From Thalassotalea atypica (lineage in GTDB: Bacteria; Pseudomonadota; Gammaproteobacteria; Enterobacterales; Alteromonadaceae), in assembly GCF_030295975.1 (NCBI RefSeq), contig NZ_AP027364.1, positions 1,798,001 through 1,862,000 of the forward strand: 64,000 bases of DNA. The letters run 5' to 3'. Made by a program: the position numbers and the translations under genes. Shown here one piece after another: positions 110 through 45,326 of this stretch (position 1 is its first letter; every line of letters starts with the position of its first letter). The notes below the pieces were generated by a model. That model had not been told where the DNA came from, searched no databases, and worked only from the letters and a program-made list of their open reading frames with translations.

Positions 110-133
110 ATGACTCCAATATTGGCTAATACC

Positions 134-232
134 CCTAACGCCTCATTAAGAGGCTAAAAATAGTTGGTTAAAATAAGCGACGAAGGAGCAAAAACCAACT
201 GTTTTTTGTCCTGCTTTAATGACTTGTTATGC
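134..232 (-). repeat. attC recombination site of the HEPN-like cassette
   Basis: This is an imperfect palindrome of about 99 bp. On the plus strand it starts CCTAACG and ends GTTATGC, with an inner stem formed by TAGTTGGTT and AACCAACT. It differs from the attC at 2220-2319 at one position before the cassette-specific end. On the minus strand it follows the 216-809 gene, and the stop codon of that gene lies inside it. The base complementarity of GTTATGCTTTT with the far end of the same cassette (near 840-850) supports the assignment. Confidence 0.92.
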
Positions 233-809: not shown

Positions 810-844
810 TTAAACTAATTCCTTACACCAAACTTCGAGAAAAG

Positions 845-947
845 CATAACGCCCACTTAAGGGGCAAAATAGAGTTGGCTAAAATAAGTGAACGGAGTGA
901 ACAAAACAGCCAACTTTATTTTGTCCCTCTTTAAGTTCTTGTTATGT
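845..947 (-). repeat. attC recombination site of the 951-1265 cassette
   Basis: This site of about 100 bp runs on the plus strand from CATAACG to GTTATGT. The inner stem pairs AGTTGGCT with AGCCAACT. It lies directly downstream (minus strand) of the 951-1265 gene. The cassette begins near 1294 with the complement of the same GTTATGTTTTT, confirming that site and gene belong together. Confidence 0.9.
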
Positions 948-1265: not shown

Positions 1266-1289
1266 TTATTCCACAACACTTGAGAAAAA

Positions 1290-1387
1290 CATAACGCCGC
1301 ATTAAGCGGCTATTTATAGTTGGCTAAAATATGTGAGGCACGAACAAAAGCCAACTGTAAATTGTCCGATTGAATGCCTTGTTAGCA
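1290..1387 (-). repeat. attC recombination site of the gene-less cassette
   Basis: This 98 bp site runs on the plus strand from CATAACG to GTTAGCA, with AGTTGGCT and AGCCAACT forming the inner stem. Its GTTAGCAGT end is matched, in complement, by the start of the cassette near 1604. Confidence 0.9.
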
Positions 1388-1604
1388 GTTTACAAATAAA
1401 CTTGAGCGGTTTACCGCTTAAACTATTTATAAGCTACTGATTAATTTAATGACTTTACCTTAATTAAAAAGAAGCGCTAAGAATAGGGCGACTTAAGATA
1501 AATGTAAAAAGATTGATTTGAACGAGGAATTGCATGATATGAAAATCCATTTTATTCGTTAAAAACTAATCCATGTTTTTACACTTAAAGATAAAGACTG
1601 CTAA
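1295..1604 (-). other. integron cassette without a convincing gene
   Basis: This 310 bp cassette lies between the attC at 1600-1700 and its own attC at 1290-1387. About 210 bp of non-attC DNA remain. On the minus strand the longest reading frame is 28 codons (ATG 1550 to stop 1464), without a good ribosome-binding site and with no recognisable product. The plus strand has nothing longer than a few codons. The cassette may carry a promoter, a small RNA or a decayed gene. GAGCGGTTTACCGCTT-like inverted bases near 1404-1420 could form a short hairpin close to the attC. Confidence 0.6.
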
Positions 1605-1700
1605 CGCCACGCTAAGCGGCGAAAAGTAGTTGGCTAAAATAGTGAACGTAGTGAACAAAAGCCAACTGTTTTTTGTCCGTTCTTGAGCGCCTTGTTAGGT
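1600..1700 (-). repeat. attC recombination site of the zinc-ribbon membrane-protein cassette
   Basis: This 101 bp site runs on the plus strand from GCTAACG to GTTAGGT, with inner stem AGTTGGCT/AGCCAACT. The stop codon of the 1695-2204 gene is inside its right end. GTTAGGTTTT is matched, in complement, at the start of the cassette near 2225. Confidence 0.9.
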
Positions 1701-2219: not shown

Positions 2220-2319
2220 ACCTAACGCCTCATTAAGAGGCAAAAAATAGTTGGTTAAAATAAGCGACGAAGGAGCAAAAACCAACTGTTTTTTGTCCTG
2301 CTTTAATGACTTGTTATAA
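2220..2319 (-). repeat. attC recombination site of the first cassette
   Basis: This 100 bp site runs on the plus strand from ACCTAAC to GTTATAA. From CCTAACG through CTTGTTAT it differs from the attC at 134-232 by a single base. Its GTTATAAGCCAC end (2313-2324) has an exact inverted copy at 2863-2874, which marks the other end of the same cassette at attI. Confidence 0.92.
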
Positions 2320-3103: not shown

Positions 3104-4066
3104 ATGAAATCACCTTATTTACGTTTTGTGGAGGAGCAAATGAGGGCGCGAAGGTATGCGAAGCGTACAATAGAAGCGTATACCTACTGGATAAAAGGTT
3201 TTATTAATTTTAATCATAAAAAGCATCCTAACGATTGTCATAACCACGAAGTTGAGGCATTTTTAAGCTTTCTAAGTAATCAGTTGAATGTGGCCCCAAG
3301 AACTCAAGCTTTAGCGTTAAATGCATTAGTGTATTTATATAAGTTTGTTGTTGGTAACCCATTAACTTTATCTTTAAGTTTTAATCGAACCAAAAATCAG
3401 CAAAAGTTACCTGTTGTACTTACAAAAATTGAAGTTGCGACATTACTAGATCAAATTAATAGTGCTTATCAACTACCCTGTAAATTAATGTATGGCAGTG
3501 GCTTACGGCTTATGGAAGTAGTAAGGCTACGTGTGCAAGATATTGATTTTGATTACCATTCTCTATGTGTTTGGCAAGGCAAAGGAGGGAAAAACAGAAG
3601 AGTAACATTGGCAAAAGATCTTGTAAGCGAATTAAAAACACAAATAGAATTAGCAAAAGTGCATTTCAATAAGGATATTTCAAAACAGGAATACGCGGGC
3701 GTATATTTGCCGTATGGATACGGAAGAAAAAACCCTACCGCTAGATTTGAATTTGGGTGGCATTACTTGTTTCCGTCTACAAGGTTAAGTGCTGATCCTG
3801 AAACTGGAGAGATCAGGCGTCATCATATTGATCACACCGTATTACGAAAATCGATTAAATCGGCAAGAATTGCCTCAGGTTTGAATAAACAGGTGACCTG
3901 TCATACTTTGCGACATTCATTTGCTACACATTTGCTTCAACGTGGTACAGATATCAGAACCATACAAGAACAGCTTGGTCATACGGACATTCGTACAACA
4001 CAGATATACACTCATGTAATAGAACAAGGAGCTAACGGTGTAAAAAGCCCCTTGGATGATTTATAA
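3104..4066 (+). CDS. intI: Integron integrase IntI (tyrosine recombinase)
   Basis: This 320-residue enzyme should recombine attI with attC sites to insert, excise and shuffle the minus-strand cassettes to its left. The core-binding SAM-like domain covers about residues 1-85 and the catalytic domain about 105-310. Catalytic residues visible are R135, H267-x-x-R270, H293 and Y302. The extra integron-specific insertion that separates IntI from XerC/D is present around residues 218-242 (HYLFPS...IRRHH). Length equals that of Vibrio-type IntI and there is no frameshift, so the gene looks functional. It is divergent from the cassettes, as usual. Regulation is likely by LexA. A weak GAG-type ribosome site precedes the ATG. 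Confidence 0.95.
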   Translation: MKSPYLRFVEEQMRARRYAKRTIEAYTYWIKGFINFNHKKHPNDCHNHEVEAFLSFLSNQLNVAPRTQALALNALVYLYKFVVGNPLTLSLSFNRTKNQQKLPVVLTKIEVATLLDQINSAYQLPCKLMYGSGLRLMEVVRLRVQDIDFDYHSLCVWQGKGGKNRRVTLAKDLVSELKTQIELAKVHFNKDISKQEYAGVYLPYGYGRKNPTARFEFGWHYLFPSTRLSADPETGEIRRHHIDHTVLRKSIKSARIASGLNKQVTCHTLRHSFATHLLQRGTDIRTIQEQLGHTDIRTTQIYTHVIEQGANGVKSPLDDL

Positions 4067-4137: not shown

Positions 4138-5724
4138 TTACTCTTGAGACGCTAAGTACTCTTCGTAAGTACCTGCAAAATCAACGTAACCGTCTTCTTT
4201 TAATTCAATAATACGGGTTGCAAGGCTTGATACAAACTCACGGTCGTGTGATACAAATACGATAGAGCCTTCAAACTGTTCTAGTGCCATGTTTAGTGAC
4301 TCAATAGATTCCATATCCAAGTGGTTGGTTGGCTCGTCCATTAATAAGATGTTTGGTTTTTGCATCATTAACTTACCAAACAACATGCGACCTTGTTCAC
4401 CACCTGATAGTACTTTAACTGACTTTTTAATGTCGTCAGCAGAGAACAATAAACGCCCTAAGTAACCACGAATGCTTTGTTCGTCGTCTTCAGCGCTACG
4501 CCATTGGCTCATCCATTCAAATACCGTCATGTCTTCTTCGAATTCATGTGCGTGATCTTGCGCGTAATAGCCGATGCTGTGGTTTTCAGACCACTTGAAG
4601 CTACCTGACGTTGGTTCGTATTCGCTCATTAACGTTCTTAAGAACGTGGTTTTACCCGCACCATTTTCACCAATTACCGCGATACGTTCGCCCACTTCAG
4701 CCATGAAGTTAATGTCTTTTAGTACGTGGTTGTCGTCAAAACTTTTGTTTAGGTGTTCTACTTCTAATACGTTACGGAATAATTGCTTTTCCTGCGTGAA
4801 ACGAATGAATGGGTTTACACGGCTTGAGGCTTTAACTTCCGCCAATTGAATTTTATCAATTTGTTTAGCGCGAGAAGTGGCTTGCTTCGCTTTTGACGCG
4901 TTCGCTGAGAAACGTGCAACAAAGGCTTGAAGCTCACCAATTTGGGCTTTTTTCTTGGCATTGTCGGCAATAAGTTGTTGGCGTGCTTGGGTTGATGCCA
5001 ACATATATTCGTCATAGTTTCCTGGGAATACACGTAATTCACCGTAGTCTAAATCGGCCATGTGTGTACACACAGAGTTTAAGAAGTGACGGTCATGCGA
5101 AATAATAATCATGGTCGATTCACGTTCGTTCAACGTGTCTTCTAACCACTGAATGGTGTGAATGTCCAAGTTGTTGGTTGGCTCATCCAGTAATAAAATG
5201 TCTGGATCAGCAAACAGTGCTTGTGCCAGCAGTACACGAAGCTTCCAACCAGGAGCCACTTCACTCATTAAGCCGTAATGCTGTTCAACGGGAATACCTA
5301 CACCCATTAATAATTCACCAGCGCGGCTTTCTGCACTGTAGCCATCCATTTCAGCGTATTCTGACTCTAAGTCACCAACGCGCATGCCATCTTCTTCGCT
5401 CATTTCTGGTAAAGCGTAAATGCGATCACGTTCTTCCTTTACCGCCCATAGTTCGGTATGGCCCATGATAACCGTGTCAACAACACTGTATTGTTCAAAG
5501 GCAAACTGGTCTTGGCGAAGTTTACCGACGCGATCATTTTGATCAAGTGAGATATTACCGCTGGTAGGGTCTAAATCGTAACCTAGAATTTTCATGAAGG
5601 TTGATTTACCACAACCATTCGCACCAATTAAACCGTATCGGTTTCCATTGCCAAACTTTTGTGAAATGTTTTCAAACAATGGCTTAGCGCCGAATTGTTG
5701 CGTGATGTTGTTTGCTATAAGCAT
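4138..5724 (-). CDS. ybiT: ABC-F family ATPase YbiT
   Basis: This soluble protein has two ABC ATPase domains in one chain and no membrane segments. ABC-F proteins bind the ribosomal E site and help stalled translation. Visible motifs are Walker A GANGCGKS and GENGAGKT, and Walker [12 protein letters not shown] and [11 protein letters not shown]. The linker between them is rich in basic residues. Sequence and length (528 residues) follow E. coli YbiT closely. ATG 5724 is chosen over ATG 5739 because it matches the family N-terminus ([12 protein letters not shown]) and has a GGTAG site eight bases upstream. A strong sigma-70 promoter lies at 5757-5785. Confidence 0.93.
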
Positions 5725-5756
5725 GTATAAATCTACCAATAAAAATAATGCGCGCG

Positions 5757-5785
5757 ATTATACAGACACTACAAGCTGAAGTCAT
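5757..5785 (-). promoter_or_regulatory. Sigma-70 promoter of ybiT
   Basis: On the minus strand a perfect -10 TATAAT (5762-5757) is 17 bases from a -35 ATGACT (5785-5780). A GC-rich discriminator, CGCGCGC, follows the -10. Such a discriminator often goes with stringent control. Confidence 0.7.
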
Positions 5786-5825
5786 GCTTGATGAAGATAA
5801 AGTAGAGCAAAATGATTAATTTTTG

Positions 5826-6380
5826 CTAATAATTCGAATGGGCTGTTACTGGCAGCAATCGGCAGGTAAAGGTTGTGCAGCCCAATGCCTTGCCATTTAA
5901 CGTAATAAAATTTGGCTCAAAGGAATAGGGGGTGAAATCTAGCTTTTTTAATACAGCGATTGAAGCGGGATTATTTTCAAGTACTTGTGCGTGTATCGTT
6001 CGAGTTGAATAAGTAGTCCTAGCGCGCTCAAGCAGTGCTTTTAGGCAGTAACTTGCATACCCTTTGTTAATGCTATGCTCTGCAACACGGTAGCCTACAC
6101 TGCAGATATGATTTTGCGTTTCAATATCTTTTAAATTGCCGCGCGCAACAATAAAACCTTGATGAATTAACACTCCTGAATAGTGGCTGCCACGTTTCAT
6201 GTTTTTTTCGGCTTGAATGATATGTTGTTCTATGCCGCTTGTGCTGTAAAAACTTGCAGGTCTTGGTGTGATCAATGACTCAAACCAAGCTTTGTTTTCT
6301 GATTCAAATTGAAGCAGTAAATCAAGGTGCTTGAGTGAGAGTGTCTCGAAGGTTAGGGTAGGTTCAGTAACTGTTGTCAT
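5826..6380 (-). CDS. GNAT-family N-acetyltransferase (RimJ/RimL type)
   Basis: This 184-residue protein resembles the RimJ/RimL/SpeG group that transfers acetyl from acetyl-CoA to amines or protein N-termini. The acetyl-CoA-binding motif A region is recognisable around residues 92-115 (VGYRVAEHSINKGYA), followed by the usual VLENNPASIAVLKKLDF motif B. The substrate cannot be told from sequence. It is the last gene of a minus-strand run behind the metallo-beta-lactamase, with short gaps (54, 70 and 40 bases), so co-transcription is possible. It is not an aminoglycoside enzyme that I can recognise. Confidence 0.8.
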   Translation of the reverse strand: MTTVTEPTLTFETLSLKHLDLLLQFESENKAWFESLITPRPASFYSTSGIEQHIIQAEKNMKRGSHYSGVLIHQGFIVARGNLKDIETQNHICSVGYRVAEHSINKGYASYCLKALLERARTTYSTRTIHAQVLENNPASIAVLKKLDFTPYSFEPNFITLNGKALGCTTFTCRLLPVTAHSNY

Positions 6381-6420
6381 GATTTGTTAACCAGTGATTA
6401 GCAGGGCAATATGACATATG

Positions 6421-6612
6421 TTACTTGGTGCGCTCTTTGATAGCTTCTTCGAGCTTTCTTAATTCAGCGTGGCATTCTTTGTTCTGTTTAGTTGAACCTT
6501 TGGTGCACGTTGCGCTGTTGTTATTGCTTAAATCAACGTCTCTTGATGTGCCATAGTAAACACACGACGACAATAATAATATACACAATATCGCGAAACT
6601 AATTCTCATCAT
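6421..6612 (-). CDS. small lipoprotein
   Basis: This 63-residue protein has a lipoprotein signal peptide: hydrophobic residues 4-15, then LLSSC with the lipid-accepting cysteine at residue 17. The mature part is short, polar and has two further cysteines (CTKGSTKQNKEC), which could form a disulfide. GGAG precedes two adjacent ATG codons, so the start is either 6612 or 6609. I do not recognise the family. It lies in the run with the metallo-beta-lactamase. Confidence 0.7.
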   Translation of the reverse strand: MMRISFAILCILLLSSCVYYGTSRDVDLSNNNSATCTKGSTKQNKECHAELRKLEEAIKERTK

Positions 6613-6682
6613 GTACTCCGTTTCATGAGTTAAATCTATCTAATTAAAGGGTAGGTTGTTGCTTGTTATTTATTATGACAGC

Positions 6683-7141
6683 TTATTTCTTACTTTTATG
6701 TCTTTGATCATCGTGATATTGCCAAAGTACATTCAGTATTTTCCATTCCCCGTTGTCATTTTTAACTAGATGCATGTAGTCAATCCATTCGTCAGCCGTT
6801 AGTTTTACTGACGCTACGCGGTTATCTATGTCGAATATTTTAATATCAATTTTTGGCTGTGCAGGGAACTTGTCACCATTTTTATTATAGTTATCCGCCA
6901 CCCACACCATAGTGTCAAAGTCGGTTTCCATGATGGTTTCCGCGCCATCTTTTGTTTGCCAATACGTTCTTTTAGCTAATTTTTTATCCAGCCCTTTTTT
7001 CATCATCTCAGGGGCTACCTTGTGCTGAGACTCAATATAATCAAGCACGGCTCTTTTAACTTTATCGGAATCGGATACCTGAACAGCAATTACGTGGCTG
7101 GACAATAGCATTGATAACAGTAGGGTAATGGTGCGATACAT
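6683..7141 (-). CDS. exported NTF2-like protein (lumazine-binding-like family)
   Basis: This 152-residue protein has an N-terminal signal peptide (residues 1-19). The rest fits the cone-shaped NTF2/SnoaL fold: N-terminal helices (VKRAVLDYIESQH), then beta strands ending in the typical WKILNVLW. This resembles the Pfam group called putative lumazine-binding (Lumazine_bd_2), whose members mostly have no known reaction. It starts 54 bases after the metallo-beta-lactamase gene on the same strand and may be cotranscribed. No catalytic residues can be assigned. Confidence 0.7.
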   Translation of the reverse strand: MYRTITLLLSMLLSSHVIAVQVSDSDKVKRAVLDYIESQHKVAPEMMKKGLDKKLAKRTYWQTKDGAETIMETDFDTMVWVADNYNKNGDKFPAQPKIDIKIFDIDNRVASVKLTADEWIDYMHLVKNDNGEWKILNVLWQYHDDQRHKSKK

Positions 7142-7195
7142 AAAGCTGTCCTTAGTTGTTTTGCGATGGTTTGCGTTGTTATTTGGCGCTATTTG

Positions 7196-7909
7196 TTAGA
7201 TTTTTTTTAACGTCATTTGCGCGGTGTGATGCAGCAATGCTTTATTGCCGACTTTACCATGTCCTGGTACTACCGTTTTGATGTTTGGATACTTGTTAAT
7301 GACATTGCTAATCGACTTTGGCCAATCAGGTATTGACGCATCACCCGTGTATCCTAAGCTTTTACTCCCCAGACTCTTAATAAAGCAACCACCAAACAGC
7401 ATATTGGATTGTGGTAGCCATACCACGATATTATCTTGTGAGTGGCCAGCGCCGGGGTAGAACACTTCAATAGAGTCGGGAACAAGCTCAAAAGTGTTTT
7501 TAGTAATAACGTGGTTTGAAGGTTCTTTTTCATTTTCACTCAGTAACGTGTTTGTTAGCTCAGTGGCATACGTTTTGATATTTAATTCGTTTAGAAGCGA
7601 CATGCCGCCGCTGGCATCTTCATGAAAATGAGTAACAACACTGGATTTCACGGTAAGGTTTTTTGACTTTATCCATTGCAGAAGTTGTTTGGTTTCAGCC
7701 ACTGTCCATGGGGTGTCAATTATGTGCGCGTTTTCTCCGTCAATAACCACCAACCCTGACGCGCCAACCAAGCCCCACGGAGCTACCTCCTTGTATGAGA
7801 TATGCTGATATACGTTGTCTGTAAGCTGCACCATTTTTAGATTAGATGCTTCACTTGCTGCCATGCTTAACCAAGAAAGTACTGACAGAAATAAAACTAT
7901 AAATTTCAT
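7196..7909 (-). CDS. Subclass B1 metallo-beta-lactamase, IMP-like
   Basis: This 237-residue enzyme is predicted to hydrolyse beta-lactams, probably including carbapenems, in the periplasm. A signal peptide covers about residues 1-18. The full B1 zinc-ligand set is present: H94, H96 and D98 (THFHED), H156 (GAGH), C175 (FGGCFIK) and H217 (PGHG). K178, the B1 substrate-binding lysine, is three residues after the cysteine. Stretches such as TYATELTN, IEVFYPG-GH, DN-VVWLP and LFGGCFIK match IMP enzymes as I remember them. It has no attC and lies 3.1 kb beyond the integrase, so it is a chromosomal gene and not a cassette. Activity and spectrum are not shown by sequence alone. Confidence 0.9.
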   Translation of the reverse strand: MKFIVLFLSVLSWLSMAASEASNLKMVQLTDNVYQHISYKEVAPWGLVGASGLVVIDGENAHIIDTPWTVAETKQLLQWIKSKNLTVKSSVVTHFHEDASGGMSLLNELNIKTYATELTNTLLSENEKEPSNHVITKNTFELVPDSIEVFYPGAGHSQDNIVVWLPQSNMLFGGCFIKSLGSKSLGYTGDASIPDWPKSISNVINKYPNIKTVVPGHGKVGNKALLHHTAQMTLKKI

Positions 7910-8383
7910 ATGTGAAACGGCTCTACTCGTTAATGATTGTTAAAAGATTGCTGGTACGTGCCAGAGGTGAAATAGATGTTAACGTTAAGTTTGTATTCAT
8001 TTTTCAAAAGATGCATTCAGTATGGGTATAAAGTAACCGAGTTATTCACTGATAAACAGTGCAATTGTTGTATACACATACACTTTTACAATTTACGTTA
8101 GTCCATTCGTTATATTTAACTTAACAACTAGTCTTAGCTAGCTTGTAACTTTGAGATGACCCATTTGCGCTGAGCTTCTAAAGTGTAGCGTGAGAACTTA
8201 CGGTGAAATGATGCCAGGATTTGAGCCGCTACCGTCAGCATTGGGTGGAAAAGCGTTCGAACGTTCAGTGGACGGTTTTATAACGGGTGAAGTACTTTTT
8301 TGTTGATGCGTAGCGTAATCAACAGTTTGTGAAACCAGCAAGCGTTAGCTCACTACAGAGCTAACGCTTTTTGATTTTTTCGA
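7910..8383. other. 474-bp intergenic region with possible small RNA or small ORF
   Basis: The left part should hold the minus-strand promoter of the beta-lactamase. The right part ends in a strong plus-strand terminator although no plus-strand gene is recognised. A 32-codon frame (ATG 8208 or 8211 to TGA 8304-8306, starting MMPGFEPLPSALGGKAF) with a GGTGA upstream is the only candidate in that direction. I do not recognise its product. A small RNA ending at 8372 or a decayed gene are alternatives. Confidence 0.4.
8340..8372 (+). terminator. Strong rho-independent terminator, plus strand
   Basis: AAGCGTTAGCTC and GAGCTAACGCTT form a perfect 12 bp stem with a six-base loop. On the plus strand it is followed by TTT-G-A-TTTTTT. 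The minus strand has no T-run, so it does not look made for ygiQ, which ends just to the right. Confidence 0.85.
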
Positions 8384-10657
8384 TTATCTTCGCTTTTTTG
8401 GCGCCTTAGGCTTACGATCGTCAAATTGATTATCTGAGAACCGTGTTAATCCTTGTTTGCCGTTACGTGACTTAGGTTTACTGTGACCACTGACACCTTC
8501 TGAACGTTTAAAACCTTGGGCATTATTTTTGCCTTTACCGCCTTTTTTATAATGCTGGTGGTTTTGTTCGCCGCGTGTTTCAGCTGGCACTAAACAGCCA
8601 GGTTTATTGCCAATGAGTTTACGAGCTAGTCCCATTTTAGTGACTGCTTCACGAATAATGGGCCAGTTAGCCGGATCATGGTAACGCAAAATAGCTTTAT
8701 GTAATCGACGCTGTCTTGTCCCTTTAGGGATTGGAACCGCTTCATTCGCTTTCTTGATGTTTTTAAGCGAATTTAGCTCGGTATGATACATAGTTGTCGC
8801 GTTGGCTAATGGCGACGGGTAAAAGTTCTGAACTTGGTCTAGCTTAAAGTCATTCTCTTTTAGCCAAAGAGCTAAATTGATCATGTCCATTTCAGTTGTG
8901 CCCGGATGTGCAGAGATGAAATACGGGATCAAGAACTGCTTTTTGCCTGCTTGTTTTGAAAACTTGTCAAACATTTGCTTAAACTCATGATAGCTGCCCA
9001 TGCCAGGCTTCATCATTTTGTTCAAAGGTCCTTCCTCGGTATGCTCTGGGGCAATTTTTAAATAGCCACCAACATGGTGAGTTGCAAGCTCCTTAACGTA
9101 CTCAGGATCTTTTACTGCTAAGTCATAACGGACACCTGACGCAATAAGAATTTTTTTAATGCCTTTAATTTTTCTTGCTTTGCGATACAAGTTAATCGTT
9201 GGTGTATGATCTGTATCTAAATGACCACAAATGGTTGGCCAAACACAAGACGGTTTACGACAGGTTGCTTCCGCTTTTTTGCTCATACAATTGAGCTTGT
9301 ACATGTTTGCCGTTGGGCCACCTAAGTCAGAAATTACACCCGTAAATCCAGGCACTTTTTCTTTGATGTCCTCAATTTCATTGAGTATGGATTCTTCTGA
9401 GCGACTTTGAATAATTCGACCTTCATGTTCTGTAATTGAACAGAAAGTACAGCCACCAAAACAACCACGCATGATATTAATTGACGTTTTTATCATGTCA
9501 TATGCTGGGATTTTAGCGTCGCCATAGGCAGGATGAGGCACACGTTTGTATGGTAATCCGAATACACCGTCCATTTCTTCTTCACTGAGCGGGTAGGCTG
9601 GCGGGTTTAACCAGATGATTCTATCACCGTGGCGTTGAACTAACGGTTTAGCAGAGCCAGGGTTTACTTCTTGGTGAAAAATACGAGACGCATGTGCGTA
9701 CAGTACTTTGTTTTCTTTAACTTGCTCAAACGTTGGCAAATTAATGTACGTTGTTTCCCAAGGTTTGCTTTTGTTTTTCCATGTTTTGTTTCGATACTCG
9801 GTCAATTCAATAGGCTGAGCTGACTTAGTCACATCTTCACTTGGGTCGACAGTAACGGCCTTATTTTGCTGGCTGTCACATTCACTAGTTTTTGTTGTGT
9901 CAGTGTAAGGGCTTAAAATTGGGTCAATTTTACCGGGCTTGTCGATTGATCTTGAATCAATGCCTTTCCAGCCAGGTAGTGCCTGCTTTGTTAAAAAAGC
10001 TGTGCCTCTAACATCGGTGATCGTTGAGATATCTTCACCGTTAGCGATACGATGGCTGACTTCAACCAACGGACGTTCGGCATTACCGTAAACCAAAATA
10101 TCAGCTTTGGCATCGAATAAAATAGAGCGTCTGACTTTTTCAGACCAGTAGTCAAAATGTGCTATTCGTCGCAACGATGCTTCAATACCACCTATAACAA
10201 CAGGTACGTCTTTGTAGGCTTCTTTACAACGTTGGGAATACACTAAAACAGCGCGATCAGGTCGTTTGCCACCTTCATTATTAGGTGTGTAGGCATCGTC
10301 ATGACGGATACGGCGTTCAGCGGTGTAGCGATTGATCATTGAGTCCATGTTGCCGGCGGTTACACCAAAATATAAATTGGGCTTACCCAGTTTCATGAAT
10401 TCATCTTTCGACTGCCAATCAGGCTGTGCGATCATGCCAACTCTGAAGCCTTGTGCTTCAAGCATTCGACCAATGATCGCCATGCCGAAACTCGGGTGGT
10501 CAACATAGGCATCGCCGGTGACTAAAATAATGTCACAACTATCCCATCCTAATTCGTCCATTTCTTGACGAGACATAGGGAAGAATGGCGCTGCGTCGTA
10601 ACACTCAGCCCAATATTTTGGATAGTCAAACAATGCTGTTTTCGGTAATGGGATCAT
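8384..10657 (-). CDS. ygiQ: YgiQ family radical SAM protein
   Basis: This 757-residue protein belongs to the YgiQ family, whose reaction is not established. It has the N-terminal YgiQ domain (about 1-350) and a radical SAM core with the iron-sulfur cysteines C399, C403 and C406 ([10 protein letters not shown]). A C-terminal extension rich in lysine, arginine, glycine and asparagine (about 690-757) looks disordered and might bind RNA. Length is near the family norm. It stands alone, with a minus-strand -10 TATAAT about 76 bases upstream. ATG 10657 matches the usual N-terminus. Confidence 0.92.
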
Positions 10658-44904: not shown

Positions 44905-44981
44905 GGAGTGGTAGTTCAGTTGGTTAGAATACCGGCCTGTCACGCCGGGGGTCGCGGGTTCGAGTCCCGTCCACTCCGCCA
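44905..44981 (+). tRNA. tRNA-Asp (GTC), copy 1
   Basis: This is a 77-base tRNA with encoded CCA, acceptor stem GGAGTGG/CCACTCC and anticodon GTC in CCTGTCACG. It is identical to the next three copies. Confidence 0.97.
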
Positions 44982-45008
44982 AGCGAAAAGTTTCATGTGT
45001 ATCTCTGC

Positions 45009-45085
45009 GGAGTGGTAGTTCAGTTGGTTAGAATACCGGCCTGTCACGCCGGGGGTCGCGGGTTCGAGTCCCGTCCACTCCGCCA
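45009..45085 (+). tRNA. tRNA-Asp (GTC), copy 2
   Basis: Identical 77-base copy, 27 bases after copy 1, CCA encoded. Confidence 0.97.
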
Positions 45086-45131
45086 CGATATACACAAGAT
45101 ATAATAAAGAAGTTAGCATCGCTAATACTGC

Positions 45132-45208
45132 GGAGTGGTAGTTCAGTTGGTTAGAATACCGGCCTGTCACGCCGGGGGTCGCGGGTTCGAGTCCCGTCCA
45201 CTCCGCCA
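45132..45208 (+). tRNA. tRNA-Asp (GTC), copy 3
   Basis: Identical 77-base copy, 46 bases after copy 2, CCA encoded. Confidence 0.97.
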
Positions 45209-45249
45209 CTTATTATATCAATCAATTCAGTCGTCGAAGAGTATAGCGC

Positions 45250-45326
45250 GGAGTGGTAGTTCAGTTGGTTAGAATACCGGCCTGTCACGCCGGGGGTCGC
45301 GGGTTCGAGTCCCGTCCACTCCGCCA
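45250..45326 (+). tRNA. tRNA-Asp (GTC), copy 4
   Basis: Identical 77-base copy, 41 bases after copy 3, CCA encoded. No clear terminator follows. Confidence 0.97.

Follow-up and report, generated by a model that had tools for sequence, protein, structure and literature searches.

How does a metallo-beta-lactamase gene come to lie on the chromosome of Thalassotalea atypica a short distance from an integron integrase, and does its presence there bear on the origin of the mobile carbapenemase genes? The window, by which we mean the whole 64,000-nucleotide stretch of DNA that was analysed (features in Table 1), lies within a single contig of 4,386,062 bp, the chromosome of this species, whose genus belongs to the Colwelliaceae by the NCBI classification; the chromosomal location given by a first-pass annotation of the stretch is therefore correct. 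The explanation that best fits the locus as a whole, to which we assign a probability of roughly 0.6, is that the gene encodes a subclass B1 enzyme of the VMB branch, that it was acquired horizontally within an insert, and that it would descend from a lineage of integron cassettes, its attC having since been lost.

Table 1. Features of the window, with positions counted from its first letter
Feature	Position	Strand	Basis or remark
attC	133..232	minus	model R1, 106.1 bits
attC	844..947	minus	model R1, 92.4 bits
attC	1289..1387	minus	model R1, 101.1 bits
attC	1599..1700	minus	model R1, 93.7 bits
attC nearest intI	2220..2319	minus	model R1, 110.8 bits
Integron integrase intI	3104..4066	plus	TIGR02249, 445.9 bits; adjoins ABC-F; conserved in congeners
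ABC-F ATPase gene, left flank of insert	4138..5739	minus	88.7-89.9% protein identity in congeners
Insert between ABC-F and ygiQ	5766..8408		missing from five congeners (blastn/tblastn of the window against G001, G002, G003, G005, G006)
GNAT acetyltransferase	5826..6380	minus	PF13302, E 1.6e-13
Small lipoprotein-like ORF, about 63 aa	6421..6612	minus	LSSC lipobox, by eye
Secreted lumazine-binding-like/SnoaL-like protein	6683..7141	minus	PF12893, E 3e-7; 55 bp downstream of bla
TCTAACAA over bla stop codon, possible attC relic	7193..7200	minus	first attC bases (R'' box end) of relatives, GGCCTCTAACAAG
Subclass B1 metallo-beta-lactamase gene (bla), VMB branch	7196..7909	minus	237 aa, signal peptide; NF033088.2, zinc ligands, tree
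TAGAG, possible cassette-edge relic	7921..7925	minus	16 nt upstream of ATG; relatives' 5' edge GTTAGAGGCC, same spacing
C-terminal fragment of SDR (short-chain dehydrogenase) gene in the bla–ygiQ interval, pseudogene relic	8184..8314	plus	
YgiQ radical SAM gene, right flank of insert	8384..10657	minus	TIGR03904, 865.5 bits; 84-86% in congeners

The Beta-Lactamase and Its Predicted Activity

The bla gene is intact and begins with ATG, and the N-terminal stretch of its protein resembles a signal peptide. The curated NCBIfam model of subclass B1, NF033088.2, matches the protein at 261.9 bits (cut-off 200 bits, E 4e-78), a match far beyond chance. The ligands H94, H96, D98, H156, C175 and H217 are invariant in an alignment of 16 B1 sequences, and K178 is kept in the window protein, so that both the subclass and the complete set of ligands had been read correctly by the first-pass annotation. 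The best family score was that of the VMB model NF038184, at 343.1 bits; because this falls short of the curated cut-off of 500 bits, the protein is to be regarded as a relative on the VMB branch and not as a VMB allele. Among solved structures VMB-1 (6jv4) came top at 319 bits, with IMP-1 at about 198, and the motif LGYTGD of the window protein has the Tyr of VMB-1 in place of the Asn of IMP (LGNLGD).

VMB-1 is also the nearest named enzyme, with 62.6% protein identity over 97% of the length (61–63% in other comparisons), and the other plasmid enzymes follow at 54.8% (VAM-1), 49% (DIM-1), 45% (TMB-1 and GIM-1), 43–44% (IMP-1), 37.6% (NDM-1) and 35.6% (VIM-1). The long stretches resembling IMP that were noticed at first reading are thus real, but they amount to a weaker match than that to VMB-1. 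VMB-1 is a shrimp-Vibrio enzyme, carried in the integron of the IncC plasmid pVb1796 of Vibrio alginolyticus, and it shares with the window protein a clade, all of the zinc ligands and the Tyr in LGYTGDA; it differs in that its gene is a cassette, with its attC intact, of a conjugative plasmid, whereas the window gene lies on the chromosome, lacks an attC and encodes a protein that scores under the VMB cut-off.

Judged from its sequence, the product is predicted to be a secreted metallo-beta-lactamase of subclass B1, a di-zinc enzyme on the VMB branch. Environmental B1 enzymes generally have no established natural role, and a B1-descended metallo-hydrolase with another physiological role and little beta-lactamase activity could be imagined here. 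We consider this improbable, as the six ligands and Lys178 are all retained, the gene is intact, and the nearest named enzyme, VMB-1, has been described as a carbapenemase (PMC10311504, PMC9604146). Given its identity to VMB-1, the window enzyme most likely shares the ability of VMB-1 to hydrolyse carbapenems and other beta-lactams. A consensus scan found no sigma-70 promoter immediately 5' of bla. As an enzyme it is an ordinary one, and its interest lies in its genomic context.

Placement among B1 Enzymes and the Question of IMP

In a maximum-likelihood tree of 102 proteins, the sister of the window gene is a gene from a Colwellia MAG (L045/L078; support 94/79). Together they fall in a clade of 19 rows that includes VMB-1 and VAM-1 (95/85), and this in turn lies within a VMB clade of 44 rows (100/97) that contains none of IMP, DIM, GIM, TMB and BIM. 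IMP groups instead with BIM-1 and with genes of Arenimonas, Cellvibrio, Kangiellaceae, Shewanella and Arenicella (100/95). Since the deep branches between the large clades have weak support, we make no claim as to their relative age.

The first-pass annotation had called the gene IMP-like and a possible relative of the ancestor of the mobile IMP genes, and the score of the DIM/SIM/IMP model, which at 273.8 bits is just below its cut-off of 288, might be cited in favour of such a kinship. The VMB model is, however, the best-scoring exception model, the IMP family model NF012147 reaches 227.2 of the 460 bits required, and the phylogeny that had been proposed as a check places the gene outside the IMP branch: a tree constrained to unite it with IMP, BIM-1 and the Arenimonas gene is worse by 105 log units, and the AU test rejects it (p = 4.25e-5). 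Nearer kin of IMP are moreover available in Arenimonas, Cellvibrio and Arenicella, and a close relationship to the IMP ancestor is, in our judgement, hardly credible. What IMP-1 shares with the window protein is subclass B1.2 and the degree of identity given above, and it differs in its clade and in the type of its attC.

Two of the IMP relatives merit description in their own right. The gene at 1434–2132 of L153, a MAG of Arenimonas sp. GDDSR-1, is the nearest relative of IMP in the tree, IMP alleles aside, with 75.7% DNA identity to IMP-1 over 664 bp, and no cassette edges were seen at it. An uncultured Arenicella MAG (L125) has intI at 266–1231, attC at 3985 and 6525, and a bla gene at 7986–8744 that is akin to IMP rather than to the window gene; it lies beyond the attC array, 6.7 kb from intI, with a GTTAGAG edge just 5' of its start. 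From this locus it appears that chromosomal integrons may hold kin of IMP as well.

B1 genes of this kind (E <= 1e-30) were found in 61 of 397 genomes of the family and in 21 of its 52 genera, a patchy distribution. A named species-level genome collection yielded 511 relatives, the best of them in Colwellia MAGs at 62–65%, and a search of viral contigs found none; the window enzyme is one further member of a large known group. One related gene (L037:8613-9146, in genome G010) is broken, its frame being lost past residue 183 with stops in the remainder. AMM-1, encoded on the chromosome of Alteromonas mangrovi, is like the window protein a chromosomal B1.2 enzyme of marine Alteromonadales; its expression in E. 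coli yields an active enzyme, and no mobile elements were reported beside its gene (PMC12238668); it is only 36.6% identical to VMB-1.

An Acquired Insert between ABC-F and ygiQ

The junction between the ABC-F and ygiQ genes measures 2.6 kb in the window and 0.15–0.4 kb in five congeners. Of six congeners, five have no bla gene, and the sixth (G004) has its copy at a different locus. The order intI, ABC-F, ygiQ is kept in G001, G002, G005 and G006, and ABC-F and ygiQ are present in G003 too, where a contig end truncates intI. Because the gene is missing where the junction is empty, bla is part of acquired DNA, an insert of about 2.3 kb. This does not agree with the description of the gene as intrinsic in the first-pass annotation. 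A gene inherited vertically in the genus and lost from most congeners would fit the presence of a B1 gene (61%) in one of them, Thalassotalea algicola. That copy has different neighbours, the window gene groups with the Colwellia MAG and not with a congener, and a single gain is simpler than several losses each leaving the same short junction, all of which makes vertical inheritance quite improbable.

The contents of the insert are mixed. The lumazine-binding-like protein has its best match in another family (72%), with orthologues in congeners at 61–67% and at other loci, and other genomes have intact SDR genes to whose 3' end the SDR fragment is 73–78% identical in DNA. From the mixed content and the closer relationship of the lumazine-binding-like gene to another family it follows that the region is acquired DNA, probably assembled in more than one step. 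There is no second copy of the insert in the genome itself, and no convincing direct repeats were found at its borders. A repeated 115-bp match between bla and ygiQ was considered as the remnant of an insertion sequence and rejected once inspection of the matching loci identified it as an SDR gene's 3' end.

The Sedentary Integron beside the Insert

The intI gene is identified well above the cut-off of its model (265 bits for TIGR02249) and ends at 4066, so that the 3 kb separating bla from an integrase in the first-pass annotation is confirmed at 3.1 kb. Divergent from it, on the minus strand, cassette genes with five attC occupy 216–2844, and the array extends upstream past the window to a total of about 35 attC in 22.7 kb (upstream sites in L180 and L193). 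At the corresponding site the congeners, too, have arrays, and their attC are of this type. This is a sedentary chromosomal integron, with intI and some 35 similar attC, and like those of other marine Gammaproteobacteria it has an integrase divergent from attC of one type; it differs from them in that the bla gene lies outside the array, with intI between the two.

The array begins with a cassette that occurs twice, at 2314–2844 of the window and at L180:17374-17923, both encoding the same 176-aa protein. Just upstream of the window, a cassette at L180:18014-19134 encodes a protein of 246 aa that by eye resembles a TIR-domain protein with a membrane anchor and possibly has a part in defence. 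Elsewhere in the window, four tandem tRNA-Asp (gtc) genes lie at 44905–45326.

Relatives That Are Cassettes

The loci of the relatives were searched with a covariance model derived from 32 attC of the genus; as a model based on one genus would miss more divergent attC, the counts that follow are lower bounds. Thirteen chromosomal rows of the tree, every one of them within the VMB clade, have a same-strand attC immediately next to bla, at one end of the gene or at both, and an attC also directly adjoins plasmid VMB-1. The cassette relatives of the window gene are found in Colwelliaceae and Alteromonadaceae. In the Colwelliaceae MAG GY13CL, whose genome has 59 attC, bla is embedded midway along a long array; in Thalassomonas RHCl1 it has attC on both sides, on a contig other than that of intI and with few attC nearby; and in Glaciecola KUL10 the attC of the bla cassette is one of only two that this model finds in the genome. 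Thus bla cassettes occur both in arrays and at scattered places. The nearness of an integron, which had been thought suggestive, is so with respect to VMB-1 and its cassette relatives, but not with respect to IMP. Within the clade there are at least five changes of cassette state, which leave the ancestral state at the branch of the window gene uncertain.

Is the Window Gene a Former Cassette?

With filters off, no attC was detected in 5700–8450 (best score 8.2 bits, E 2.9), which bears out the earlier statement that the gene is not itself a cassette, and nhmmer found no attC half-site in the insert. There are, nonetheless, two short matches to the cassette edges of the relatives. In these the 3' edge, GGCCTCTAACAAG, spans or nears the stop codon, and the 5' edge, GTTAGAGGCC, places TAGAG 15–17 nt before ATG in most; the window gene has TCTAACAA at its stop codon and TAGAGCC at the spacing seen in cassette relatives. 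When 708 ORFs from non-array DNA were taken as controls, none had TCTAACAA at the stop and none had TAGAG at exactly the place that it has in the window (five had it within -19..-9), and the joint alignment score of both edges was reached by one. Singly each edge is weak, the 5' edge falling in the 2.5% tail and the other in the 1.0% tail, and 65 of the 708 controls score as high in a 36-nt half-attC alignment past the stop, which makes this match unremarkable. In view of the weak single edges, the negative half-attC test and a motif chosen after looking, the gene is probably, and only probably, a decayed former cassette.

It could also be that a plain chromosomal B1 gene was acquired horizontally and was never a cassette in this lineage, in which case the proximity of the integron would be coincidence and the edge matches chance. 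The failure of both the covariance model and nhmmer to find an attC would then be expected, as would the lack of cassette edges at the tree sister in the Colwellia MAG; the 5' relic is weak on its own, and the lipoprotein-like ORF, the GNAT gene and the SDR fragment, none of which has an attC, would argue that the insert was made by some other recombination. We regard this as somewhat unlikely, given how rarely the controls match both edges jointly and given that the window gene sits inside a clade with 13 other chromosomal cassette rows.

Under the preferred reading, that of descent from a cassette, the gene would have been acquired horizontally in the insert beside the host's sedentary integron, having probably arrived as a cassette placed outside the array or as a descendant of one. 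The route there may have been an attG-type insertion or the transfer of an already decayed copy, with the attC of the window gene lost afterwards in either event. Cassettes are known to insert at attG sites of the non-classical kind (Loot et al. 2024, as cited in PMC11023631 and PMC12901181). To the eye, L082, L083, L088 and VAM-1 have the look of intermediate stages of decay. VAM-1, also from V. alginolyticus and in the same clade as the window gene, likewise has no attC and differs in being plasmid-borne beside ISCR1. On its plasmid, pC704 (L044:3938-4714), GTTCAGAGG upstream and CTTCTGACAA near the end of the gene resemble decayed cassette edges.

The Source of the Plasmid VMB-1 Cassette

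Two chromosomal cassettes closely match the plasmid VMB-1 cassette (L043:4971-5809): that of Alteromonadaceae bacterium Bs31, with 95.0% DNA identity along 839 bp, and that of Glaciecola KUL10, with 92.6%. The alignment with Bs31 begins at GTTAGAG and ends at GGCGTTA, that is, at the two recombination points. The attC of the VMB-1 cassette scores 81.6 bits with the Thalassotalea-type attC model, and every other attC in the resistance-integron loci tested, which were those around IMP-1, DIM-1, GIM-1, TMB-1, BIM-1, VIM-1 and VAM-1 together with the other cassettes beside VMB-1, scores at most 38.3 bits; that of IMP-1 is of another type (14.9 bits with model R1). We take this as strong evidence that the VMB-1 cassette comes from an integron of marine Alteromonadales, or that both derive from a very recent common source, the direction from chromosome to plasmid being suggested by the diversity on the chromosomal side. 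The integrase beside VMB-1 (L043:3661-4629) recurs at 99.9–100% identity on plasmids from Marinobacter sp. SBY-1 and from several Providencia, from which it is apparent that the mobile integron platform of VMB-1 travels widely.

A marine or gammaproteobacterial origin of the B1.2 enzymes has been proposed before (PMC5637372, PMC12238668), Shewanella and other Proteobacteria have been named in general terms as sources of mobile metallo-carbapenemases (PMC5637372), and a marine source has been inferred from attC for many beta-lactamase cassettes (PMC8352920). The attC models in that last study assigned resistance cassettes only to Xanthomonadales, Spirochaetes and Vibrionales, and none to Alteromonadales (PMC8352920). 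What the present analysis adds is that a named mobile carbapenemase cassette is linked to chromosomal cassettes of Alteromonadales.

On balance, it seems probable that the VMB branch has its native home in the chromosomal integrons of Colwelliaceae and marine Alteromonadaceae, where its genes are held, exchanged and shed as cassettes, that plasmid VMB-1 was taken from there together with its attC, and that the window gene, itself once such a cassette, came to rest outside the array and has lost its attC. On the question of where the mobile metallo-carbapenemases come from, there are now for VMB-1 near-identical chromosomal cassettes in named marine isolates, with an identity that ends at the recombination points, so that the source of this cassette is directly testable. 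The locus in Thalassotalea atypica, for its part, may show a cassette gene in the course of turning into an ordinary chromosomal one.
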